This document shows positions 2,421 to 29,116 of a stretch of DNA of 34,345 bases, piece after piece (the first letter of the stretch is position 1; the number at the start of each line of letters is the position of its first letter). Made by a program: the position numbers and the translations under genes. The stretch is from a virus. The notes under the pieces were generated by a model that saw nothing but the letters and a program-made list of their open reading frames with translations, had not been told where the DNA came from and did not search any database. The stretch is from positions 1 through 34,345 of IMG/VR virus record IMGVR_UViG_3300042465_004173; one strand, 5' to 3'.

Positions 2421-4517
2421 CTACTCATTAACCCCACCAATGTATGAAATTTTGGCATTAACTAGGTCATATTTGTCCATTCCAGCCGAAGTTATCCACA
2501 GGCTAGACTTCGTTGCCGATCCTTTGTTTTCAATAAATCCGTTCTTCTCCAAGGTCTCAAGGCGCTCGCCAATCAGCCCCTTGTCACCTTTGACACCTTC
2601 ATTTAGCTCACGGCGAGAGCAACCGGGATTGTGGTGGATGAACTCTGCCATCTCATTCATCTTCTTAAACTCGGTGCGTTCGTTCAACTCATCCTCAGAT
2701 GTAGGCGCTCCGATGACATATTGCATTTGTGCGCGGGTTGAGTCAATGGTAAAGACTGCTGCCTCTTGAGTACGATCCGATTTGCGGTACATCCCTGCCG
2801 ATGCTCGAACATCACCGATGCGGTCTTTGGTCACTCGCAGGGTGAGAGTGCCGACCCGCCCAGGCGATAGCACCTCGATTGGCTCCACGATATAGGCAGC
2901 ACCATCAATGGTTGCCAACTTCGCTTGCCCACCGATTGCGAACCTGCCACGCGTATCGGCGTTTTTGGTGATGTGGTCAATGAGAACTACGGCTGCCCCT
3001 GATTCCTTGGCAACCTTGCGTGGGAACTGGCGCATCCATCTTGTGATGTCATCATTGTCCACTGTCTGAGCGCCCCACATAGTTAGGGATTCGGTAACGC
3101 CGTCAATGACTATGAGAGAGGCTGAATCGGGTGCGATGATGGCATCCCAATACGGATCATCTACTTGGCGTGCCGTTTCGGGCCGAATGTAGGTGAGGTA
3201 CTGCAAAAGGTTTGCTCGGCTCACTCCAAGGCTCTTGAGGCGCTTTACGATGTCTTGTGGGTCTGATTCAAAGTCAATGTAGATAACTTTCTTATCTGCT
3301 CGCAAGAGTTCGGCAGTTGCTATTTGAGCGACCCACGATTTACCTGATTCGGATTCACCATAGAATGAGTGAACCTTGCCCGCATAGATAAGGCTCTTGC
3401 CATCGGTTCGGGTGAGGATGTTTGCCTTTACCTCTTGAAAGAGTCCATCGTAGTAATCAGATAAGGCGATTGGTTTCCACGATGAGCTTTCTGCAATTTC
3501 GGCTATCTGTTCCTCGCTTAAATCAAAAGACTCAATCGCCAAAGGTCGTAGCTCATTTGATTGCCCGAAGCCCTGCTCTCTTAGCGCTGTGGCTGCTTGC
3601 TTAAAATCTCCACCATATTGCAGGTGAACTAAGGCTCCGAACTTGTCATAGGATCGCTCAGAGTCAAAGGCAGTTGAGGTTGAAAAGACCATCAACTTAT
3701 CGGTGCCTTGATAGTTCGTGGTGGCAGATACGCCGAAATCCTTACCTGGGCGAGTCCACGCGGTCTTTTCGCCTTGCGTGTATGCCTTCTTCCACCCAAG
3801 CGGTTGCAGTAGCTCATCCCAAGTGGTGCGGGCATTGTAATCATCGCCCGCCGTGAGAGCGCCATCGCTTCGCTTGGCAACCTCTAAGGCAACCGACTCA
3901 GGTTTTGGCATTGCATCAAACATTCTAAACACATCGTGCAAAGCATCTCGCTCTTGCCGTGAGAAGGTCGCAATCGTCTCGATGCTACCGCGAAGCATCT
4001 GCCACGCACCGCCCGAAGGATGGCATTTGCCACCTGAAGGTGCAGTGATGCAGAAACCACCTTCGCCTCTTGTCTCGGCTAAGACATCAACCCCGCCGTT
4101 CTCACCTGGTCTGCGAGCGAGCTTGGTGTTTCCTGGCACGTCTCCTTCAACCTTGTAGAGCCAATGCAAGCCACCTGAAGGTGTTGCCTCGACATAGGAT
4201 GAGTTCAGTTTCTGCCACAAGTCACCTAAACCTGATCCGTTGCATATCTCTGCAATCTCAAGGTGCATCTTCTCGGAGACTGCCCGCCCCTCAAGCTCAA
4301 GCATCTCAAGGTTGCCTGAGATAGTGCCGGTGATAACGCCCACGCCATCTTGAGGTGCGCTAAACCAACTCACAATCTCTTCAGGGGTCGGCGCACTCTC
4401 TTGGTATTGCTTCCAAGAAGATAACCCTGGGCGCTTAGACCCATCTTGGGAGACGGGAACTGCGACAATCCCTGCATTAGCAAATCGAAGCGCTGTTGTC
4501 AGTGTTTCGTTAGTCAT
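2421..4517 (-). CDS. Primase-polymerase / RepA-type helicase
   Basis: A 698-residue replication protein. Residues 1-165 match the bifunctional primase-polymerase (Prim-Pol) domain: an acidic strand at 71-76 (EMLELE), the SGGLH motif at 114-118 and VDVLAE at 143-148. The first acidic motif has Glu where many relatives have Asp. After a linker, residues 375-600 form a RecA/RepA-like ATPase with Walker A GESESGKS (387-394) and Walker B SLIVIDG (467-473). The C terminus (about 620-680) looks like a winged helix (RRELNEG, IGERLETLEKNGFI). Such fusions prime and unwind DNA in phages and plasmids lacking their own replicative polymerase, as appears true here. AAGGGGGA precedes the ATG. The gene overlaps the 51-residue ORF upstream by eight bases and is followed directly by the GTGCCG repeat block. 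Confidence 0.9.
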   Translation of the reverse strand: MTNETLTTALRFANAGIVAVPVSQDGSKRPGLSSWKQYQESAPTPEEIVSWFSAPQDGVGVITGTISGNLEMLELEGRAVSEKMHLEIAEICNGSGLGDLWQKLNSSYVEATPSGGLHWLYKVEGDVPGNTKLARRPGENGGVDVLAETRGEGGFCITAPSGGKCHPSGGAWQMLRGSIETIATFSRQERDALHDVFRMFDAMPKPESVALEVAKRSDGALTAGDDYNARTTWDELLQPLGWKKAYTQGEKTAWTRPGKDFGVSATTNYQGTDKLMVFSTSTAFDSERSYDKFGALVHLQYGGDFKQAATALREQGFGQSNELRPLAIESFDLSEEQIAEIAESSSWKPIALSDYYDGLFQEVKANILTRTDGKSLIYAGKVHSFYGESESGKSWVAQIATAELLRADKKVIYIDFESDPQDIVKRLKSLGVSRANLLQYLTYIRPETARQVDDPYWDAIIAPDSASLIVIDGVTESLTMWGAQTVDNDDITRWMRQFPRKVAKESGAAVVLIDHITKNADTRGRFAIGGQAKLATIDGAAYIVEPIEVLSPGRVGTLTLRVTKDRIGDVRASAGMYRKSDRTQEAAVFTIDSTRAQMQYVIGAPTSEDELNERTEFKKMNEMAEFIHHNPGCSRRELNEGVKGDKGLIGERLETLEKNGFIENKGSATKSSLWITSAGMDKYDLVNAKISYIGGVNE

Positions 4518-5412: not shown

Positions 5413-5931
5413 TTATTTCCCCACCACATTGTTAATAATCCATTGAACTACTGGCACCGCTACCGCGTTGCCCATCTGCTTATAGCGGTTGGAATCGGCT
5501 TGCTCGGCAGTCCAACCATCGGGAAATCCCTGCAATCGCTCACACTCAGTTGGTGTGAGTCGGCGTACAGTCACAGGCTCGGCGATGAAGAGCTGTGCGT
5601 GATGAGACTGAACGCTTGGCTGATTGGCCTGAAGAGCAAGAGCAGTATCGGTTTCGGTAGCACTAAAGTTATTTGCCTTTGCATCTTCTCTTACTGAATA
5701 ACATATTGCTGGCACATTACCCCCGCCTGTTCCCCATCTTTGAATAACTGTCTGCATAATTTCATCATCATAAACACGCACATCATTAACACGCGTGCCA
5801 TCAAGAATCAAAATTGTTGCCCTAGTTTCAGTGGCATTATCAAAAGCGTTCAAAGTCGGCGCAATGCCTTCAGCGATCCAAGTTTCAAAATCCTCATCAT
5901 TTTGCGCCCTGCGACTTTTGACAAACCACAT
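5413..5931 (-). CDS. Cytosine-5 methyltransferase, C-terminal (target recognition) half
   Basis: A 172-residue protein carrying conserved motif IX (RRLTPTECERLQGFPDGW, about 119-136) and motif X (GNAVAVPV) of C5-cytosine methyltransferases. A roughly 110-residue N-terminal region would hold the target recognition domain. The catalytic motifs are absent; they lie in the separate gene at 6013-6654. GGGGAG about six bases before the ATG gives it its own ribosome site, so it looks like a translated second subunit, as in the two-gene enzyme M.AquI, whose halves divide at the same point. It is in the same frame as the first half, with three stops between. Active heterodimer is the preferred reading; a broken single gene is the alternative. 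Confidence 0.82.
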   Translation of the reverse strand: MWFVKSRRAQNDEDFETWIAEGIAPTLNAFDNATETRATILILDGTRVNDVRVYDDEIMQTVIQRWGTGGGNVPAICYSVREDAKANNFSATETDTALALQANQPSVQSHHAQLFIAEPVTVRRLTPTECERLQGFPDGWTAEQADSNRYKQMGNAVAVPVVQWIINNVVGK

Positions 5932-6013
5932 TATGACTCCCCGAAATAAAATCGTTGATTGATATTTGGGCTTTGCAATTAGTGCAAAAACCTATTTGGT
6001 CAGCAAAGTTCAT
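5897..6013 (-). CDS. Small Cys-containing ORF between the methyltransferase halves
   Basis: A 38-residue ORF in another frame, MNFADQIGFCTNCKAQ..., with one CxxC (CTNC) and a third Cys near the end. It starts in a TAATG overlap with the stop of the first methyltransferase half, so ribosomes could re-initiate there, and its 3' end overlaps the start of the second half by 35 bases. It could be a small zinc-ribbon protein bridging the two subunits translationally or physically, or a chance ORF. The match to a zinc knuckle is incomplete. Confidence 0.4.
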   Translation of the reverse strand: MNFADQIGFCTNCKAQISINDFISGSHNVVCQKSQGAK

Positions 6014-6654
6014 TATTCGCCACCTGATCCAATGCTTCTTGCAAAATCGTTGGCAGAGTCTTTCCCCTTCGATTGGCTCGCCTCAAGATACCTTGCGCGG
6101 CTTTGGCTGATATTGAGTATTTCTTCAGGTGTTCGCCCTGAGTTTCCAAGACATCCGACAATGAACACTCTACGCCTTCGTTGGGGAACTCCGAAGTATT
6201 GAGCATCAAGCACCCGCCATCCCACGCGATACCCGCGCTCGACCAACGCTTCAATGACAACGGCCATATCTCTTCCGTTATTTGAGGAAAGTAAACCAGG
6301 CACGTTTTCAAGGATAATCGTTTCCGATCCTGTTTCGTCAATGAGTCGGCAGATTTCCCAGAATAGACCACTGCGTTTTCCCGCCAATCCTGCTCGCTTA
6401 CCGGCAACGCTAAGGTCTTGGCAAGGAAATCCACCTGTGATAATTCCACCTCTAGGTTCAAATCCTGCTGCAATGAGTTGTTCACCTGTTACCCCCGTGA
6501 CATCGCCAAAAATGGTTGAGTTCGGGAAGTGTCGGCGTAACACCCCCTGAGCTTTCTTATCAATTTCAACGCTAGCAACAACTTTCACACCTGCGCGTTC
6601 AAGTGCTAAATCAAAGCCACCCACACCTGCAAATAAAGATACTGCGGTTCTCAA
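6013..6654 (-). CDS. Cytosine-5 methyltransferase, N-terminal (catalytic) half
   Basis: About 213 residues holding motifs I (SLFAGVGGFDLAL), IV with the catalytic Cys (GGFPCQDLS), VI (ENVPG) and VIII (QRRRRVFIVG). The sequence ends where the target recognition domain would begin, and motifs IX-X are in the next gene. It should bind AdoMet and form the covalent cytosine intermediate, but would need the second subunit for sequence recognition. I chose TTG at 6654, giving MRTAVSLFAG with GGGGGA four bases upstream; a TTG four codons earlier is possible. The start overlaps the FmdB-like gene stop (TTGA). Likely an anti-restriction or DNA-marking enzyme. Confidence 0.85.
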   Translation of the reverse strand: MRTAVSLFAGVGGFDLALERAGVKVVASVEIDKKAQGVLRRHFPNSTIFGDVTGVTGEQLIAAGFEPRGGIITGGFPCQDLSVAGKRAGLAGKRSGLFWEICRLIDETGSETIILENVPGLLSSNNGRDMAVVIEALVERGYRVGWRVLDAQYFGVPQRRRRVFIVGCLGNSGRTPEEILNISQSRARYLEASQSKGKDSANDFARSIGSGGE

Positions 6655-6812
6655 TCTTTCCCCCAACCCGTTCCTTTGAAGATTGCCGGAATGACTGTAA
6701 AAACACGCCTTGCTTCCTTACCGCACTCGCAGGTATGAGTGATTCCTTCATCAAGTCTTATCTGCTTTTCAGTTACTTTCCCGCACTCACATTCAAATAA
6801 GTAAGTAGGCAT
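6651..6812 (-). CDS. FmdB-type zinc ribbon protein
   Basis: A 53-residue protein, too short for routine ORF lists. It begins MPTYLFECECG, then a second CxCG pair (CECGKEARR), the pattern of the FmdB-like zinc ribbon family (MPxYxFxCxxCG ... CxxC). Most members have CxxC; here both pairs are C-E-C, an unusual spacing. The end (FKGTGWGKD) also fits the family, where the motif GxGWY is common. AGGGGGA lies five bases before the ATG, and the stop overlaps the start of the methyltransferase gene. Members are called regulatory but have no settled biochemical role. Confidence 0.75.
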   Translation of the reverse strand: MPTYLFECECGKVTEKQIRLDEGITHTCECGKEARRVFTVIPAIFKGTGWGKD

Positions 6813-7430: not shown

Positions 7431-7550
7431 CTATTCTTTAGTTTGTTGGATTGGGTATTGGGGTGGATTTGATTCCATCTCAATTCTTTTTATGTCATTG
7501 ACTGTCGCGTGAATCTTCATAGTGCAATCGCATCCATCACGCTCACACAT
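7431..7550 (-). CDS. Small Cys-rich ORF between exonuclease and SSB-like gene
   Basis: A 39-residue ORF, MCERDGCDCTMKIH..., with three Cys in the first nine residues and a polar Pro/Gln-rich tail. GGAG lies six bases before the ATG, which overlaps the exonuclease stop region, and its own stop is followed at once by the ribosome site of the SSB-like gene. Position and ribosome site support translation; no function recognised. Confidence 0.5.
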   Translation of the reverse strand: MCERDGCDCTMKIHATVNDIKRIEMESNPPQYPIQQTKE

Positions 7551-8292
7551 CGCTATCTCCAGGACACGCCTTGCTCACATCCTTACTAAACGGCTGATAG
7601 TAGGGGCAATACATACAAAGGCGTGAAGGAACTATGGGGATGTGTTCCCACATCGCAGGATTAGCCTCAACATCTATGGTTGAGAGCAGGGTATAAACAT
7701 TGTCAATGCGCTCTAGGGCATCGAGAACAATCTGCTCATCATATTTATGAAGCTCAATATACATATCGGTGATTTGACCGCCTGTAGGCAAGAAAACGAG
7801 TCCGACATACTCGACCTCAACGCCTTCTTTAACCTTGCCGTAGGCATAAGTCATCACCTGAATAATCTCTTTTTGAGTAGCACCTTGCGAGCGCTTTTCT
7901 TTGACACCTGTTGGAGATTTGGTTTTCCAATCAAGCACCATCTTGCGCTCTAAATGAAAGAGGTCAATCGTGCCTTTCAGGTTGCCTCGAATCTGCACGC
8001 GTTGTTCAGTTGCATACATAAGGTCATTGGTGAAGATGCCTTCAAGATGTGAGTGGATGGCAGTGCCAACTTGGGCTGCCCACGATCCGCTTGCAGATTG
8101 ATTCACCTTAGGCCAATCAAGCAATTTGTAAGCAAGTTTGCGCGTACATTCCTCGCCTAACTCGCTCGGCCCAATAGCAATTTGCTTGGATCGCGGTGAG
8201 TAAATCCCTGCATCGGTGATTACTTGGCAGAGTTCCCTTTTGAGTTCGTCTGCAAGTAACACCAATTCAGGTTTGAGTGGAGTAAAGGTCAT
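7543..8292 (-). CDS. RecB/Cas4-like PD-(D/E)XK exonuclease
   Basis: A 249-residue nuclease of the PD-(D/E)XK group. Visible are an N-terminal GPSELGEECTRKLAY motif, GTAIHSHLEG (His and Glu of motif I), GTIDLF and the catalytic LDWKTK (D-x-K), then an alternating beta/alpha stretch including VMTYAYG. The C terminus has CMYCPY and a later Cys, reminiscent of the Cas4-type Fe-S cluster, though I count too few Cys with certainty. Such phage exonucleases generate ssDNA for recombination and fit between the SSB-like protein and the 105-residue partner. Its start overlaps the preceding gene by four bases. Confidence 0.82.
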   Translation of the reverse strand: MTFTPLKPELVLLADELKRELCQVITDAGIYSPRSKQIAIGPSELGEECTRKLAYKLLDWPKVNQSASGSWAAQVGTAIHSHLEGIFTNDLMYATEQRVQIRGNLKGTIDLFHLERKMVLDWKTKSPTGVKEKRSQGATQKEIIQVMTYAYGKVKEGVEVEYVGLVFLPTGGQITDMYIELHKYDEQIVLDALERIDNVYTLLSTIDVEANPAMWEHIPIVPSRLCMYCPYYQPFSKDVSKACPGDSDV

Positions 8293-8627: not shown

Positions 8628-9059
8628 TTAATAATATCGGTTTGCCTTGAAAAACTGCCACGCCTTGCAAGGCCCACCTGATCCATATTTTCTCGAAATG
8701 TAGGATAGCGCTGCAACTGTCTGAGACACTCGCGACTCGCCCTTCCTCATCCCAAGATTTTCATAAGTGCCTTTGAGCAACTGCCCAACACCTGAAGCGC
8801 TACTTGTCGGATTGTCTTTATCCTGCCAAGCGCTTTCGGCACCCATCAACTTTGAGAAGCATTTGAAATCCCGCGTGTGCAAGAGTTCGCGTGCTACTTC
8901 CTTTGGATTAACCTGCATTAAAGCAGGTGGCTCCTTGTAGATAACCAACGCCGGAACTGCCTGGGTTGGCGATATTGCTTGAACTGCAAGTGATGTCACG
9001 ATGCTTGCGCCTATGATGGCTGCGAGCCTTCGTGCGAGTTTTTTGTCTGTCTGTGTAAT
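8628..9059 (-). CDS. Secreted lysozyme-like (transglycosylase-fold) protein with apparent ATT start
   Basis: The C-terminal region has the signature of lysozyme-like domains seen in actinobacterial and Lactobacillus cell-wall proteins: MGAESAW with the likely catalytic Glu, SSASGVGQLL, ALSYISRKYGSGGPCKAW and a terminal NRYY. The standard start (GTG at 8999) would leave out a clear signal peptide. Reading upstream in frame gives TDKKLARRLAAIIGASIVTSLA, with basic, hydrophobic and Ala-ending parts. The frame runs back only to a TAA at 9075-9077; the sole well-placed start is ATT (9059-9057), seven bases after AAAGGAG. About 143 residues. It overlaps the 3' end of WhiB. It may weaken the peptidoglycan for lysis or act outside the cell. 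Confidence 0.72.
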   Translation of the reverse strand: MTQTDKKLARRLAAIIGASIVTSLAVQAISPTQAVPALVIYKEPPALMQVNPKEVARELLHTRDFKCFSKLMGAESAWQDKDNPTSSASGVGQLLKGTYENLGMRKGESRVSQTVAALSYISRKYGSGGPCKAWQFFKANRYY

Positions 9060-9463
9060 GGTGTAGCTCCTTTGTTAGCCCCACCTCTAAGCACACTGAG
9101 AATTCGATGAACATAATGCTTACGAAATCCAGTAAGAGATGAGATTTCCTCGGCAGATTTACCTTCTTCAGCAAGCCCCTTAATCCGCTTAGCCTTGCCA
9201 GCCTTGGCAAAACCTCGCACTCTTGGCTCCCTTGCTTTATATCTTTCGTCTGCGGATTTACCGCCCCAAAAGCCGTAGTCAATCTGCTTTTCCGTTGCGT
9301 ATTCCAAACACTCCTTTTCGTGGATACAGGTCGCGCACAAGGCGCGTAACTGTGGCAGTCTTTCTGCCTCTTGCTTCCCCGATTTGGGAAAGAAGAAATC
9401 TTTGTCATCTATTGTGGCACATACCGCCTGTGGGAATTCAGGTGAATCAATCTCAAATTTCAC
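9011..9463 (-). CDS. WhiB-family Fe-S regulator with C-terminal HTH
   Basis: A 150-residue WhiB-like protein. The four cluster ligands are C15, C43, C46 and C52, followed by the family turn GFWGG (64-68). Unlike the shortest host WhiB proteins it carries an extra tail with a probable helix-turn-helix (about 90-125: IKGLAEEGKSAEEI, GFRKHYVHRIL). WhiB proteins bind a 4Fe-4S cluster and the sigma factor; phage versions (for example TM4 WhiB) interfere with host WhiB regulation and block superinfection. I chose GTG at 9463 (GTGA overlap, AAAGGAG eight bases upstream) over an upstream TTG. It is strong evidence for an actinobacterial host. Confidence 0.9.
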   Translation of the reverse strand: MKFEIDSPEFPQAVCATIDDKDFFFPKSGKQEAERLPQLRALCATCIHEKECLEYATEKQIDYGFWGGKSADERYKAREPRVRGFAKAGKAKRIKGLAEEGKSAEEISSLTGFRKHYVHRILSVLRGGANKGATPLHRQTKNSHEGSQPS

Positions 9464-9813
9464 CCTTGCTTCTCCTTTAGCCAAGAATCTAGGTTTTGAA
9501 TTACCCAGGCATCTTCAATCCCCGCATTACGGCGCTTGAGGATGATATAAGCAGGGGGTGTGACCCCTAGCCCCCTTGCCTTGGCATAGTTTTCTGCTTC
9601 GACTGTGGCTTCACGCCAAAATTCAGGCAACGAAATGGTCTTGCGGTTTTTGAGTTCAAGGATGTAGCTCTTGCCCGAAATCGTTGCGACAAGATCACCC
9701 TCATCATTTGCGCCCGCCTTTACCAAACGCTCTGCAACGGCTCCCATCTTACGAAGCCATCTCATTACATCGGTTTCAAACTGCGCACCCTTGCGACCAT
9801 TTGGATTAGCCAT
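9460..9813 (-). CDS. PD-(D/E)XK nuclease, Holliday-junction-resolvase-like
   Basis: A 117-residue nuclease. It begins with the pattern of archaeal-type resolvases and related small phage nucleases: GRKGAQFETDVMRWL (Glu in helix 1), EGDLVA with the catalytic Asp, and YILELKNRK (E-x-K). The following helix and PPAYIILKRR strand fit the fold. The likely role is resolving or trimming branched replication and recombination intermediates. Its stop overlaps the WhiB start and it lies directly after the 117-residue hypothetical gene. Confidence 0.78.
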   Translation of the reverse strand: MANPNGRKGAQFETDVMRWLRKMGAVAERLVKAGANDEGDLVATISGKSYILELKNRKTISLPEFWREATVEAENYAKARGLGVTPPAYIILKRRNAGIEDAWVIQNLDSWLKEKQG

Positions 9814-10167
9814 CTACTCAACTAACCTCAATTTCGCCACTTTGCTTGCCATCTCATCGGCATTAAAAAGTCGGCGCTTCTTGATGGAAGTGATGATGTC
9901 TTGGCAGAGATTGAAAGCCTCATCCTCGGTCATTATTGCAATCTTGAGAGCCATCTCAGGCAGGTTATTTCTAGCCCTATCAAGAGCCTCAACTACGCCA
10001 TCTTCCTTGAGGCTTGCAGATGAAGCACCCTTGAGTGCATCCAAATCATCAAGTGAGTTAAAACTAAGAACATCCTCGACCACATCAATGCAAGCCTCTT
10101 GCTCTTCTAAATAGAGGCAGACACTTCCTGAATCTGTGGTGTGAACTGAAAACAATGGATCACGCAT
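9814..10167 (-). CDS. Hypothetical acidic protein
   Basis: A 117-residue acidic protein with mixed beta strands at the N terminus (VCLYLEEQEACIDVV) and helices afterwards, ending in a basic stretch (IKKRRLFNADEM). No family recognised. It is packed between the small membrane protein and the resolvase-like gene, one base from each, so belongs to the same operon. Confidence 0.6.
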   Translation of the reverse strand: MRDPLFSVHTTDSGSVCLYLEEQEACIDVVEDVLSFNSLDDLDALKGASSASLKEDGVVEALDRARNNLPEMALKIAIMTEDEAFNLCQDIITSIKKRRLFNADEMASKVAKLRLVE

Positions 10168-10368: not shown

Positions 10369-10917
10369 CTAGGCTTTTTGAACCTCGATTTGGAAGGGTT
10401 CGCAGGTGTTGATGTCATATTTGGCTGCGACACCTAGCGCTTCAATTATCTGATCCTGCGCCCATTCGGGTTTGACAAGGTTGCCGATAGTTCCTGCAAG
10501 GAAACCAAGCGCGTAAGGCGAGCCACTGCCCACGCCATAGATTCCATCTTGGCTTTGGCTAATGGAAAGCTCATCGCCTATCTCAAAGATATTGCCAGCG
10601 AAGGCGAGAAGATAGGAATAACTTGAGCCTTCTTTGGTGTGGTCGTAGCCGTGAGACTTAAAGGTGAGGATGATGCTTGGGATTATCTTCCTGCCCATAA
10701 ACTTCACGGGGTCGGTGCCATCATAGGAAGGTGGTTTCCAGTTATACATAAGCAAATCCCCAGGTCGGCAATCCCCTGAGACTGCAAGCAGGTATCGGCC
10801 CACCTTCACGATTTTGGGCGTGCTTGGGCTAATGATTCGCTTATCCCCATCGGTGATTTGGCTATCAGCGCCTAGGATGGCGAAATCTGCCCCCTGATAG
10901 CCCACAATGGTTGTCAT
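10369..10917 (-). CDS. HslV / proteasome-beta-like Ntn hydrolase
   Basis: A 182-residue protein of peptidase family T1. After Met removal the N terminus is TTIVGY, matching HslV TTIV: Thr1 as nucleophile, Asp17 (in LGADSQ) and Lys34 (in PKIVKVG, one residue off the usual 33). Further on are SGD and GVGSGSPYALG, matching the conserved GSG(G/S) segment, then helices resembling the C-terminal half of the fold. Length is close to HslV (about 175), and as in HslV there is no propeptide. No HslU-like ATPase is visible in the window. It may form its own peptidase ring, work with a host ATPase, or mix with the host proteasome. It is the first gene of the left arm, so probably early. Confidence 0.82.
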   Translation of the reverse strand: MTTIVGYQGADFAILGADSQITDGDKRIISPSTPKIVKVGRYLLAVSGDCRPGDLLMYNWKPPSYDGTDPVKFMGRKIIPSIILTFKSHGYDHTKEGSSYSYLLAFAGNIFEIGDELSISQSQDGIYGVGSGSPYALGFLAGTIGNLVKPEWAQDQIIEALGVAAKYDINTCEPFQIEVQKA

Positions 10918-10918
10918 A

Positions 10919-10982
10919 GGGCGATTTTACCCCCCAAGAGTGGGATTACCTAGGTTTTACTCCAAACACGCTCAAATCGCCC
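10919..10982. repeat. Separated inverted repeat around the left-arm promoter
   Basis: GGGCGATTT (10919-10927) and AAATCGCCC (10974-10982) are perfect 9-bp complements 46 bases apart. The first covers the candidate -10 of the HslV-like gene and the second is near the expected upstream control region, as in repression by looping. A direct repeat GCTCAAA...TCG also occurs at 10970 and 10991. Confidence 0.4.
10924..10952 (-). promoter_or_regulatory. Candidate leaderless promoter of the left-arm operon
   Basis: On the minus strand TAAAAT (10929-10924) lies six bases before the ATG of the HslV-like gene, with a weak -35 TAGGTA 17 bases upstream. Transcription would start at or next to the ATG, giving a leaderless message, which is common in actinobacteria. 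A GGGGGG just upstream of the -10 lies too far for an ordinary ribosome site. Confidence 0.4.
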
Positions 10983-16943: not shown

Positions 16944-17446
16944 TATGCGCTCGCAATTCCGTATAGGGTAAAGGTTGAGCCAGTTGCAAAGTTACGACTA
17001 GGGCAGAATAGATAAATGCTGTTGATTGCAGAAGTGTTGCGCCATAGATTGACATAGGCATCTGTACCACTATCGGCTCGGTTTGACCTACCGATAAAAG
17101 TCTTGTTTGTAGTTGTGTTGGAATAGTTCATAAAATTTGTAATTGAGATGGCTCTTTGAGTTGTAGAAAAGGAAGCATAGAAATCTAAAATGCCAGCAGT
17201 ATCACTTGTATATCTAAAAGACCCTGCTGTGCTGCCTGTTCCATACAGGTTAGTCGCTGAATAATTAGAGCCACCATCGCTGTTGAGTTGGACTCTTAAA
17301 TCTTGGGCTGTTCCACTATCGAGTAAACCATTGACGATTAGAACTAGGTCTGTGTAAGTGCTAGGGATACTGCTAAAGGTAACGCTTGCTGTTGCGCTTC
17401 CAAGCGTGTTAGTGGCTATCGGCGTGTAAGTAGAACCTGCGGGCAT
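16943..17446 (-). CDS. Tail-tip/receptor-type structural protein B
   Basis: A 167-residue beta-rich protein with the same marks as its two neighbours: SIPSTYTDLVLIV, NTTTNKTF, a NTSAINSIYLF strand and a final FTLYGI. It is divergent enough that sequence identity is limited to these positions. The stop/start with gene C touch at one base. Likely a tail appendage; receptor binding is inferred from position and paralogy. Confidence 0.65.
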   Translation of the reverse strand: MPAGSTYTPIATNTLGSATASVTFSSIPSTYTDLVLIVNGLLDSGTAQDLRVQLNSDGGSNYSATNLYGTGSTAGSFRYTSDTAGILDFYASFSTTQRAISITNFMNYSNTTTNKTFIGRSNRADSGTDAYVNLWRNTSAINSIYLFCPSRNFATGSTFTLYGIASA

Positions 17447-17450
17447 TTAT

Positions 17451-18059
17451 CTATCCTTTGATTCCGTAAAGGGCGAACTGGGAGTATTGATTAAATGATG
17501 AACCAAATTCAGGTCTAAATTGAATTGTCGTAATTGCAGAAGTAGAACGCCAGTTACCCGAATTAAAAACAATTTGCCCGCCGTATCCTGCAATTGTTCC
17601 GTTATGGTCTGCGCCGCTTAAAATCCTTGCAGTCTTGTTAATGTTCGTATTTGCATATTCCAGTATGTCTAACACGCCTGCGCCATAGGTTGATGTAGCC
17701 GCGCTTCCTGAAGCCTGTGCTAAGAATTGCGTACTGCTTGTTCCTGCGCCAGCAGTAGCCGATGCACCATCTCCAGTTAATGCGTGGAAAGAATAATTAG
17801 CCCCTGTGTCAATTGAACCATTACCCACGCGAATCAAAATGTTATCTGTGCCATATGTTCCTCTATTTGTTTGCGCTATGAAACGCACTTGCAAATGCTT
17901 GTAAGTGCTAGCAATAGACGAGAACGAGACTGTGCTTGAACCACCTGCCCCGACTGTTACTGTGGCAATTGATTCATAGGCTAAAAGACCACCTGCGGCT
18001 GCGCCAAACATCCCATAGCCTCTAGCTGAGGCGTTTGCTAGTGTGCTAATAAGTGGCAT
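17451..18059 (-). CDS. Tail-tip/receptor-type structural protein A
   Basis: A 202-residue version with a longer N terminus (LANASARGYGMFGAAAGGLLAYE) that may anchor it to the tail, then the shared domain: SSIASTYKHLQVRF, TNINKTARI, STSAITTIQFR and a final FALYGI. As the longest, and first after the fibre gene, it is the likeliest to hold the other two. No homologue of known structure recognised. Confidence 0.65.
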   Translation of the reverse strand: MPLISTLANASARGYGMFGAAAGGLLAYESIATVTVGAGGSSTVSFSSIASTYKHLQVRFIAQTNRGTYGTDNILIRVGNGSIDTGANYSFHALTGDGASATAGAGTSSTQFLAQASGSAATSTYGAGVLDILEYANTNINKTARILSGADHNGTIAGYGGQIVFNSGNWRSTSAITTIQFRPEFGSSFNQYSQFALYGIKG

Positions 18060-27586: not shown

Positions 27587-28585
27587 CTATTTTGTGTTGT
27601 TGATAATTGCTTTGGCTAAGCGCAAAGAAATCTTGCGAGCTGCTTCTTCAGGACTTGGCTCATTTAATGGCTCAATCGCTCTCAAGGTTGAGGCTTTATG
27701 GCCGACAAGAGTTTCTGTGGCTTCCCAGCCGTCTCGAACTTCTTGATAAATACGAATCAAGATTGCAGGATCATCCTCTTCGGCGGTAATTGAGAAGTCT
27801 GTGCCTGGTATTCCTAGAACGCCCTCGCGCATAACGTGTTCAATTCTTCCGCGAGCTGTGCCGCCTGAAGAATCCCACTCTACGAAATCGCCAACAACAT
27901 CAACTGCGCGAGTTGATTCTTCTTCTTCTTCCTCATACTCGCCTTCACCCATCAAGAGAGCCATCATCTCAACGGCTCGCATAACGTATTCGTGACCTTC
28001 CTTGAGGTCGCTAAAGACTGTTTGAAGCACTGCCAAAGATTCGCCGGTAACTTCGCGACCTTCTTTGACTGCCATAATCGCCTTGCGGAGTTCTTCACGC
28101 GCTTCAACTGAAGTTGTTGGGTAGGCAGGATATGTGACAACTGAAACGTCACCATCTGCAAGCGAGAGTTCGGTGAGAAGGCGCTCGGTGCGACCTTCAT
28201 TCCACTTTTGACGAATCACACGGAAAGCGAAGCTCATCTGATCCAAATCTCCGCGCTGAACCAAAGTGTAGAGGTCGCGCCCTTCTTGGGTGTCTGCGAT
28301 AACCGCATCCATATAAAGACCGCGCTCATCTTCGCTAAGTGTGAGTGTGCCGTTCTTTGTGCGAGCTAAAGGCAAGCCTTCGTGGTTGATGAGCAAACGC
28401 ACATCGGGGGTTTCGCTTAGGGTCTTGCGGAAAGCGCCAGGTGCGATTCGCTCTACGAATGGCAATGGCACTGAATTATCGTTGAAAACTGCGGCATATC
28501 CTGAAAGGCGCATTGTGCCATCGTCTGCTTGGCGTGCCTCAACATCCTGCACTGTATAAGTACGGCGTTCGATTTTTTTGCTCAT
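27587..28585 (-). CDS. Prohead protease, internal-start form
   Basis: In-frame ATG at 28585 gives 332 residues beginning MSKKIERRTYTVQDVE, the usual start of an S78 protease, with AAGGAG and a four-base spacing. The full-length form begins 177 codons earlier. It would yield a standard-size protease without the N-terminal domain. Which form is used, or whether both are made, cannot be told from sequence. Confidence 0.65.
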   Translation of the reverse strand: MSKKIERRTYTVQDVEARQADDGTMRLSGYAAVFNDNSVPLPFVERIAPGAFRKTLSETPDVRLLINHEGLPLARTKNGTLTLSEDERGLYMDAVIADTQEGRDLYTLVQRGDLDQMSFAFRVIRQKWNEGRTERLLTELSLADGDVSVVTYPAYPTTSVEAREELRKAIMAVKEGREVTGESLAVLQTVFSDLKEGHEYVMRAVEMMALLMGEGEYEEEEEESTRAVDVVGDFVEWDSSGGTARGRIEHVMREGVLGIPGTDFSITAEEDDPAILIRIYQEVRDGWEATETLVGHKASTLRAIEPLNEPSPEEAARKISLRLAKAIINNTK

Positions 28586-29116
28586 TTTGCTCCTTGAATC
28601 GGCCTCAGCATCTAAGGCATCAATTTTGCGCTGCGCCCAATTTTGCGCTCTGTCGCTGAAGTTGGAATCTCCACCCCAAAGTAACCAGGCAACTAAACCT
28701 GCGCCTGGGTATTGGGCATTGGATGGATCATTGTTTTTTGGTGCTTGTCCATCAACTTGATGGCGTGCAAACCAAGGTGCCATCTTGCGCACCTTGTTTT
28801 CTGAAATTCGACCTGCTGCCATTTCGCGAGCTTCTCGCTTGGTGGCATCGGTGAGACCATCTCCCCCAAAACCTTCTTGTAGGTATTTCAACCCACGCTC
28901 TGCATTAGCGCGAATGAAGGAAGGAACCGATAAATCAACTGCACGAACTTCGCCTAGTGGCTCTATCTCTTCGGCAATGGAAACTGCAACCATTTGAGCG
29001 ATTGCATCATCCTTTGTATCGTGACAACCGATAGTGGTGAAAGAGCCGTCTGACTCTTCCTTCACTGTTGCCCAACCTGAGCAATCTGATTGGTTATCAC
29101 TAATTCCGTATGGCAT
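27587..29116 (-). CDS. Prohead protease with extra N- and C-terminal domains
   Basis: A 509-residue fusion. Residues 1-50 are a small Cys-containing domain (SDCSGWATVKE, GCHDTKDDA); 55-170 a helical region (GLKYLQEGFGGDGL, WFARHQVDG, GAGLVAWLLWGGD). Residues 180-345 are an HK97-type S78 protease (H245 in LINHEG, S295 in MSFAF). The C terminus (about 400-509) has an acidic run and a beta domain (GDFVEWDSSGGTARGRI, LVGHKAST) resembling DUF2945/XkdF-type modules. The protease part has a second start at M178 (28585) with AAGGAG four bases upstream, so a shorter form is likely. Confidence 0.85.
   Translation of the reverse strand: MPYGISDNQSDCSGWATVKEESDGSFTTIGCHDTKDDAIAQMVAVSIAEEIEPLGEVRAVDLSVPSFIRANAERGLKYLQEGFGGDGLTDATKREAREMAAGRISENKVRKMAPWFARHQVDGQAPKNNDPSNAQYPGAGLVAWLLWGGDSNFSDRAQNWAQRKIDALDAEADSRSKMSKKIERRTYTVQDVEARQADDGTMRLSGYAAVFNDNSVPLPFVERIAPGAFRKTLSETPDVRLLINHEGLPLARTKNGTLTLSEDERGLYMDAVIADTQEGRDLYTLVQRGDLDQMSFAFRVIRQKWNEGRTERLLTELSLADGDVSVVTYPAYPTTSVEAREELRKAIMAVKEGREVTGESLAVLQTVFSDLKEGHEYVMRAVEMMALLMGEGEYEEEEEESTRAVDVVGDFVEWDSSGGTARGRIEHVMREGVLGIPGTDFSITAEEDDPAILIRIYQEVRDGWEATETLVGHKASTLRAIEPLNEPSPEEAARKISLRLAKAIINNTK

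Follow-up and report, generated by a model that had tools for sequence, protein, structure and literature searches.

A phage-encoded T1 peptidase of the HslV/proteasome-beta superfamily with a conserved, putatively leaderless promoter in freshwater actinophages

Introduction

What could a phage gain from a proteasome-like peptidase if its genome supplies no unfoldase to feed it? The question is raised by a 34,345-nt stretch of viral DNA, analysed here in full (the window), in which a preliminary description had placed an HslV/proteasome-beta-like protease at positions 10369-10917, envisaging a subunit that forms its own chamber, poisons the proteasome of the host or redirects it. Proteasome-like phage proteins have been published. 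Fuchs, Alva and Lupas catalogued 22 new proteasome homologs in 2021, phage-encoded ones included, named PPH the first true viral member, reported AAH in many phages though in no actinobacterial phage, and found neither AAA+ partners nor a function for such homologs (PMC8665760). Beside that catalogue, our literature search on the function of phage proteasome or HslV proteins returned annotation-level mentions only: one paper notes that a Salmonella jumbo phage has HslV but no HslU (PMC7823757), and another assigns a BPH to a Citromicrobium phage (PMC8953757). Phage proteasome homologs are thus already known, from that catalogue and as a PHROGs family, and the novelty of finding one is smaller than the preliminary description supposed; what is new is the conserved leaderless-type promoter, the core status of the gene in a large group of freshwater actinophages, and a homologue in two cultured Planktophila phages, where the gene has a second setting behind the portal gene.

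Family assignment and active site

The coordinates first given are correct and the gene lies on the minus strand, a point left unstated before, since reading from 10917 to 10369 gives an ORF of 182 aa free of stops and the plus-strand frame is interrupted by them. The product scored 30 bits for Pfam Proteasome (PF00227; cut-off 22.4) and matched PHROG 1040 ("peptidase HslV family") over its full length (residues 1-180, E 1.7e-24), both far above chance level. Run against the PDB, a family profile built from 69 sequences matched chains of HslV, BPH and 20S beta, the best match being T. maritima HslV (1m4y, E 1.3e-10), and the profile alignment set Thr2, Asp18 and Lys35 of the ORF on Thr1, Asp17 and Lys33 of HslV, and its GSG (residues 130-132) on the HslV GSG. 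In mature numbering, with the initial Met removed, Thr2 becomes Thr1, Asp18 becomes Asp17 and Gly48 becomes Gly47, with Lys35 the equivalent of Lys33; the peptidase then begins TTIVG and has Asp17, Lys34 and GSGS, the very features that had earlier been read as those of a catalytic T1 enzyme, a reading now borne out by Pfam, PHROG, the alignment to 1m4y and Foldseek.

Structure prediction and a T1 search, which the preliminary description had proposed as a check, agree with this: the AlphaFold monomer model (pLDDT 93.1, pTM 0.88) has the alpha-beta-beta-alpha fold of Ntn hydrolases and matches BPH, HslV and 20S structures with E values of about 1e-10. The best PDB match by Foldseek was BPH from Thiobacillus (5ovs; E 7e-11, TM 0.76); chains of HslV and of the 20S proteasome came next. 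The active site is assigned by profile alignment together with the Foldseek match. Judged from its sequence, the 182-aa ORF is confirmed as a phage-encoded, catalytic-type T1 peptidase of the HslV/proteasome-beta superfamily.

Among 145 non-identical sequences, the window included, eight positions never vary (Thr2, Thr3, Asp18, Lys35, Gly48, Arg51, Gly130 and Gly132, each 145/145). Residue 131 is Ser or Thr throughout, 110 sequences have Asp and 35 Asn at residue 168, and residue 171 is Thr, with Ser once; in an alignment with 6z46, a 20S beta subunit, residues 168 and 171 pair with Asp and Ser. Thr stands immediately after the start codon in 144 of the 145 distinct homologues listed (129 MTT, 15 GTG-started TT), the sole exception being a distant Chromatiales match, and we therefore read the peptidase as one without a propeptide, in which removal of Met would expose the nucleophile. 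The dN/dS of the gene was 0.09-0.13 against its three closest relatives and 0.09-0.20 for more distant pairs, whose dS is partly saturated. Catalytic competence, as far as sequence can tell, is the best explanation for a full catalytic set kept under purifying selection.

Position within the proteasome superfamily

HslV (ClpQ) gave the best profile match and shares with the window peptidase a Thr after the start Met and a similar length, but the phage protein falls far under the equivalog cut-offs (NF003964, 22 bits against 137; TIGR03692, 18.5 against 157.75), and no phage HslU accompanies it. A 20S beta subunit, recognised by a paired alpha subunit, a propeptide and a C-terminal H5, was likewise rejected: the genome gave no second proteasome match, the protein has no N-terminal extension, and the model stops after the last strand. 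BPH (5ovs, 5ovt, 5ovu), which binds epoxomicin (5ovt), is the top match among solved structures; identity to it is 20%, and BPH is bacterial, with a long acidic pore loop. PPH and AAH resemble the window peptidase in being phage-encoded, compact, of group I type and without an AAA+ partner; PPH itself, at about 140 aa and without helix H2, was set aside, the window peptidase having 182 aa and a modelled H2 of 19 residues (70-88). The best reading places the peptidase in the compact bacterial and phage branch of the superfamily (HslV/BPH-like).

In GenBank the gene also occurs in isolated actinophages, where it is annotated as "protease". PHROG 1040 has as members Geobacillus virus E3 gp65, Tenacibaculum phage pT24, Microbacterium phage Pumpernickel gp135 and Arthrobacter phage Hum25 gp81, which share with the window peptidase the full-length profile match and the same catalytic residues, but differ from it in sequence (20-36% identity) and in gene neighbourhood, and for which no leaderless promoter has been reported.

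Genome, host and core status

The two ends of the window (positions 1 and 34345) adjoin in a relative (G004), and no terminal repeat was found in it, so that it most likely represents an entire phage genome that is circularly permuted; it holds no tRNA genes. WhiB, which marks actinobacterial hosts (PMC10611076, PMC6802176), was present in 28 of the 29 phage records searched, the window included, and supports the actinobacterial host assumed earlier.

Pattern-based scans, which can miss distant bacterial homologs, found at least 552 relatives of the peptidase in a viral contig collection and a single one in a genome collection, the latter in a Chromatiales MAG. To anchor a test of core status we used the downstream PD-(D/E)XK exonuclease gene (7543-8292, minus strand; PHROG 1674), which occurred on 80 contigs. 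Of these, 56 could be evaluated, having at least 3.8 kb upstream of it, and in all 56 the T1 gene was present at a distance of 2.1-3.1 kb and in the same orientation as the exonuclease gene; in this group of phages the peptidase gene is therefore core.

As the preliminary description had it, no ATPase partner is encoded: the window contains no AAA or AAA_2 domain. More widely, the AAA_2 domain (HslU) was found in none of the 29 phage records, the control being positive in 14 of 14 genomes, and the AAA domain in none of the 19 records of the window type. The ATPases recognised in the window are a Prim-Pol primase-polymerase with a RecA-like ATPase domain (2421-4517, minus strand), which is not an unfoldase, and the large terminase subunit, assigned by position and sequence only; we thus found no phage unfoldase in this genome. 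Matches to PF00004 in records of the Planktophila phage F5 type (see below) were considered as unfoldase candidates and rejected, being probably a DnaB-like replicative helicase, as judged from the F5 protein. A DSL-LC01-like record also matched PF00004, through an AAA protein of 331 aa whose gene stands some 10 kb away from that of the peptidase.

Operon and promoter

The peptidase gene opens the left, minus-strand operon on the replication side of the genome. Downstream in the same operon follow a conserved gene for a 117-aa protein with no family match (9814-10167, minus strand), a RusA-like Holliday junction resolvase gene (9460-9813, minus strand; PHROG 244) and the WhiB-like regulator gene that serves as host marker (9011-9484, minus strand). 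A -10-like element, TAAAAT (10924-10929, minus strand), lies 6 nt before the ATG. In window-type phages a TAnnnT hexamer ends 6-8 nt ahead of the start codon in all 76 distinct upstream regions, which share descent and hence are not independent tests, and a Shine-Dalgarno-like 4-mer occurs in none of the 76. By comparison, 26 of the 38 other minus-strand genes of the window have a Shine-Dalgarno-like 4-mer and none has TAnnnT at that place, while at random positions in the same loci TAnnnT occurred at 7%. The flanks of the 76 regions vary; the frame and spacing of the hexamer are constant. A conserved TAnnnT at fixed spacing, together with the missing Shine-Dalgarno sequence, supports a leaderless transcript whose 5' end would be the start codon, so that the candidate promoter first described is supported, and the place at the head of the left operon holds. 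From this promoter and from the place of the gene in the replication-side operon, early expression would follow.

Further along the minus strand, at 5413-6666, the gene for a C5 cytosine DNA methyltransferase falls into two same-frame ORFs with two in-frame stops between them; in a relative (L113) one ORF of 473 aa takes their place.

Proposed mode of action and alternatives

The reading that we favour, and hold to be probable, is that the gene provides, early in infection, an active threonine peptidase that is homo-oligomeric and self-compartmentalising and that acts, with no phage unfoldase, on host or phage proteins in a flexible or unfolded state. For its timing, assembly, activity and substrate we infer the following course. 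Soon after DNA entry the gene would be transcribed by host RNA polymerase; the start codon would be the first codon transcribed, so that no Shine-Dalgarno sequence would be needed; and host deformylase and methionine aminopeptidase would expose Thr1. The subunits would then assemble into a single or double homo-oligomeric ring. Peptides, and proteins that are flexible or unfolded, might be cleaved in its chamber with no ATPase as partner, as has been suggested for BPH, or alternatively with a host AAA+ protein. Its likeliest purpose would be the early removal of particular host proteins, or the recycling of host protein. Should it indeed need no unfoldase, the enzyme would amount to a minimal viral proteasome. 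The gene is core, strongly constrained and preceded by a conserved leaderless-type promoter, and two phages already in culture, whose hosts belong to an abundant order of freshwater bacteria, carry a homologue, which makes such a role testable.

Two other modes of action seem to us about equally improbable. The subunit could block or redirect a protease of the host, either the 20S proteasome or some other, by inserting into it or capping it. A 20S proteasome is often present in Actinobacteria, and the predicted fold resembles the 20S beta subunit of M. tuberculosis (3mka), but identity in that structural match is only 18%, and a catalytic set invariant in 145/145 sequences with a dN/dS of about 0.1 would not be expected of a mere blocker; for these last two reasons poisoning of the host proteasome, one of the roles first envisaged, is disfavoured. 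Our literature search found no paper that mentions Nanopelagicales together with the proteasome. No better placed is a connectase-like enzyme of low oligomeric state, a specific processing peptidase or a ligase with one or a few target proteins, as opposed to a chamber that degrades protein in bulk. Proteasome homologs can indeed be monomeric, specific ligases (Fuchs et al., PMC8665760), and an enzyme of this kind would fit a genome in which no unfoldase is present. However, in connectase the first pair of helices is missing and S3/S4 carries an insertion (PMC8665760), whereas the peptidase model has both helices of that pair (50-59 and 70-88) and a short turn only at S3/S4.

A second setting behind the portal gene

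Phages E7 and F5 have been cultured on Ca. Planktophila (PMC10202952), and the homologue in LanE43-AprF5 (OX376641) and LanE43-AprE7 (OX376640) is 34-36% identical to the window peptidase over its whole length. The two share the predicted fold and a freshwater actinobacterial host, but the gene in the cultured phages does not head an early operon: in F5 (17155-17691 of OX376641, locus L277, minus strand) it stands in the head module directly behind the portal gene, and likewise in the related loci L117-L196. Among F5-type phages the T1 gene lies within 60 nt behind the portal gene in 71 of 80. Prohead proteases usually lie behind the portal gene, so a maturation role for the F5-type enzyme comes into view, and proteases of the S78, S14, S49 or PHROG 80 type were not found in the F5-type records searched.

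The window phage, unlike F5, has an S78 prohead protease of its own (27587-29116, minus strand; PF04586 with 144 bits, PHROG 80), which adjoins the capsid gene. S78 was found in 18 of 19 window-type records, the exception being a record of 26.5 kb. The T1 peptidase was itself considered as an S78-type prohead protease and rejected, its fold being different and the window carrying S78 separately. Given this separate enzyme, and with the T1 gene heading a replication-side operon, head maturation by the T1 peptidase is unlikely for the window phage; for the F5 type it is possible, although the argument there is positional only, many phages needing no capsid proteolysis. As a general account of the T1 peptidase, a head-maturation protease or processor of virion proteins is accordingly rated lower still than the host-proteasome and connectase-like readings. 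Somewhat less doubtful than any of these three, if still improbable, is a dual use of the same peptidase: in window-type phages it would be an immediate-early protease, leaderless and autonomous, with no unfoldase, and in the Planktophila F5 type a head-maturation protease. Our literature search found no report of a threonine or Ntn-type prohead protease, and if the head-module version in F5 does mature capsids, it would represent a new class of prohead protease of that type. That the gene is a non-functional or accidental passenger can be dismissed with near certainty on its dN/dS of about 0.1, core status and invariant active site.

The S78 protease of the window matches PHROG 2859 (function unknown) with its N-terminal ~170 residues and has a Hva1_TUDOR-like stretch at its C-terminus. 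In a third group of relatives (L019-L023, ~35% identity) the start codon of the peptidase gene overlaps the stop codon of a metallophosphoesterase gene at both loci examined (1273-2451 with 2451-3092 in L019; 6787-8001 with 8001-8642 in L022), which suggests translational coupling; the metallophosphoesterase was not adopted as a partner of the peptidase, the overlap being missing in the window. In Aeromonas phage 2L372X, two "peptidase HslV family" genes stand side by side (2953-3504 of locus L035 and the gene next to it).
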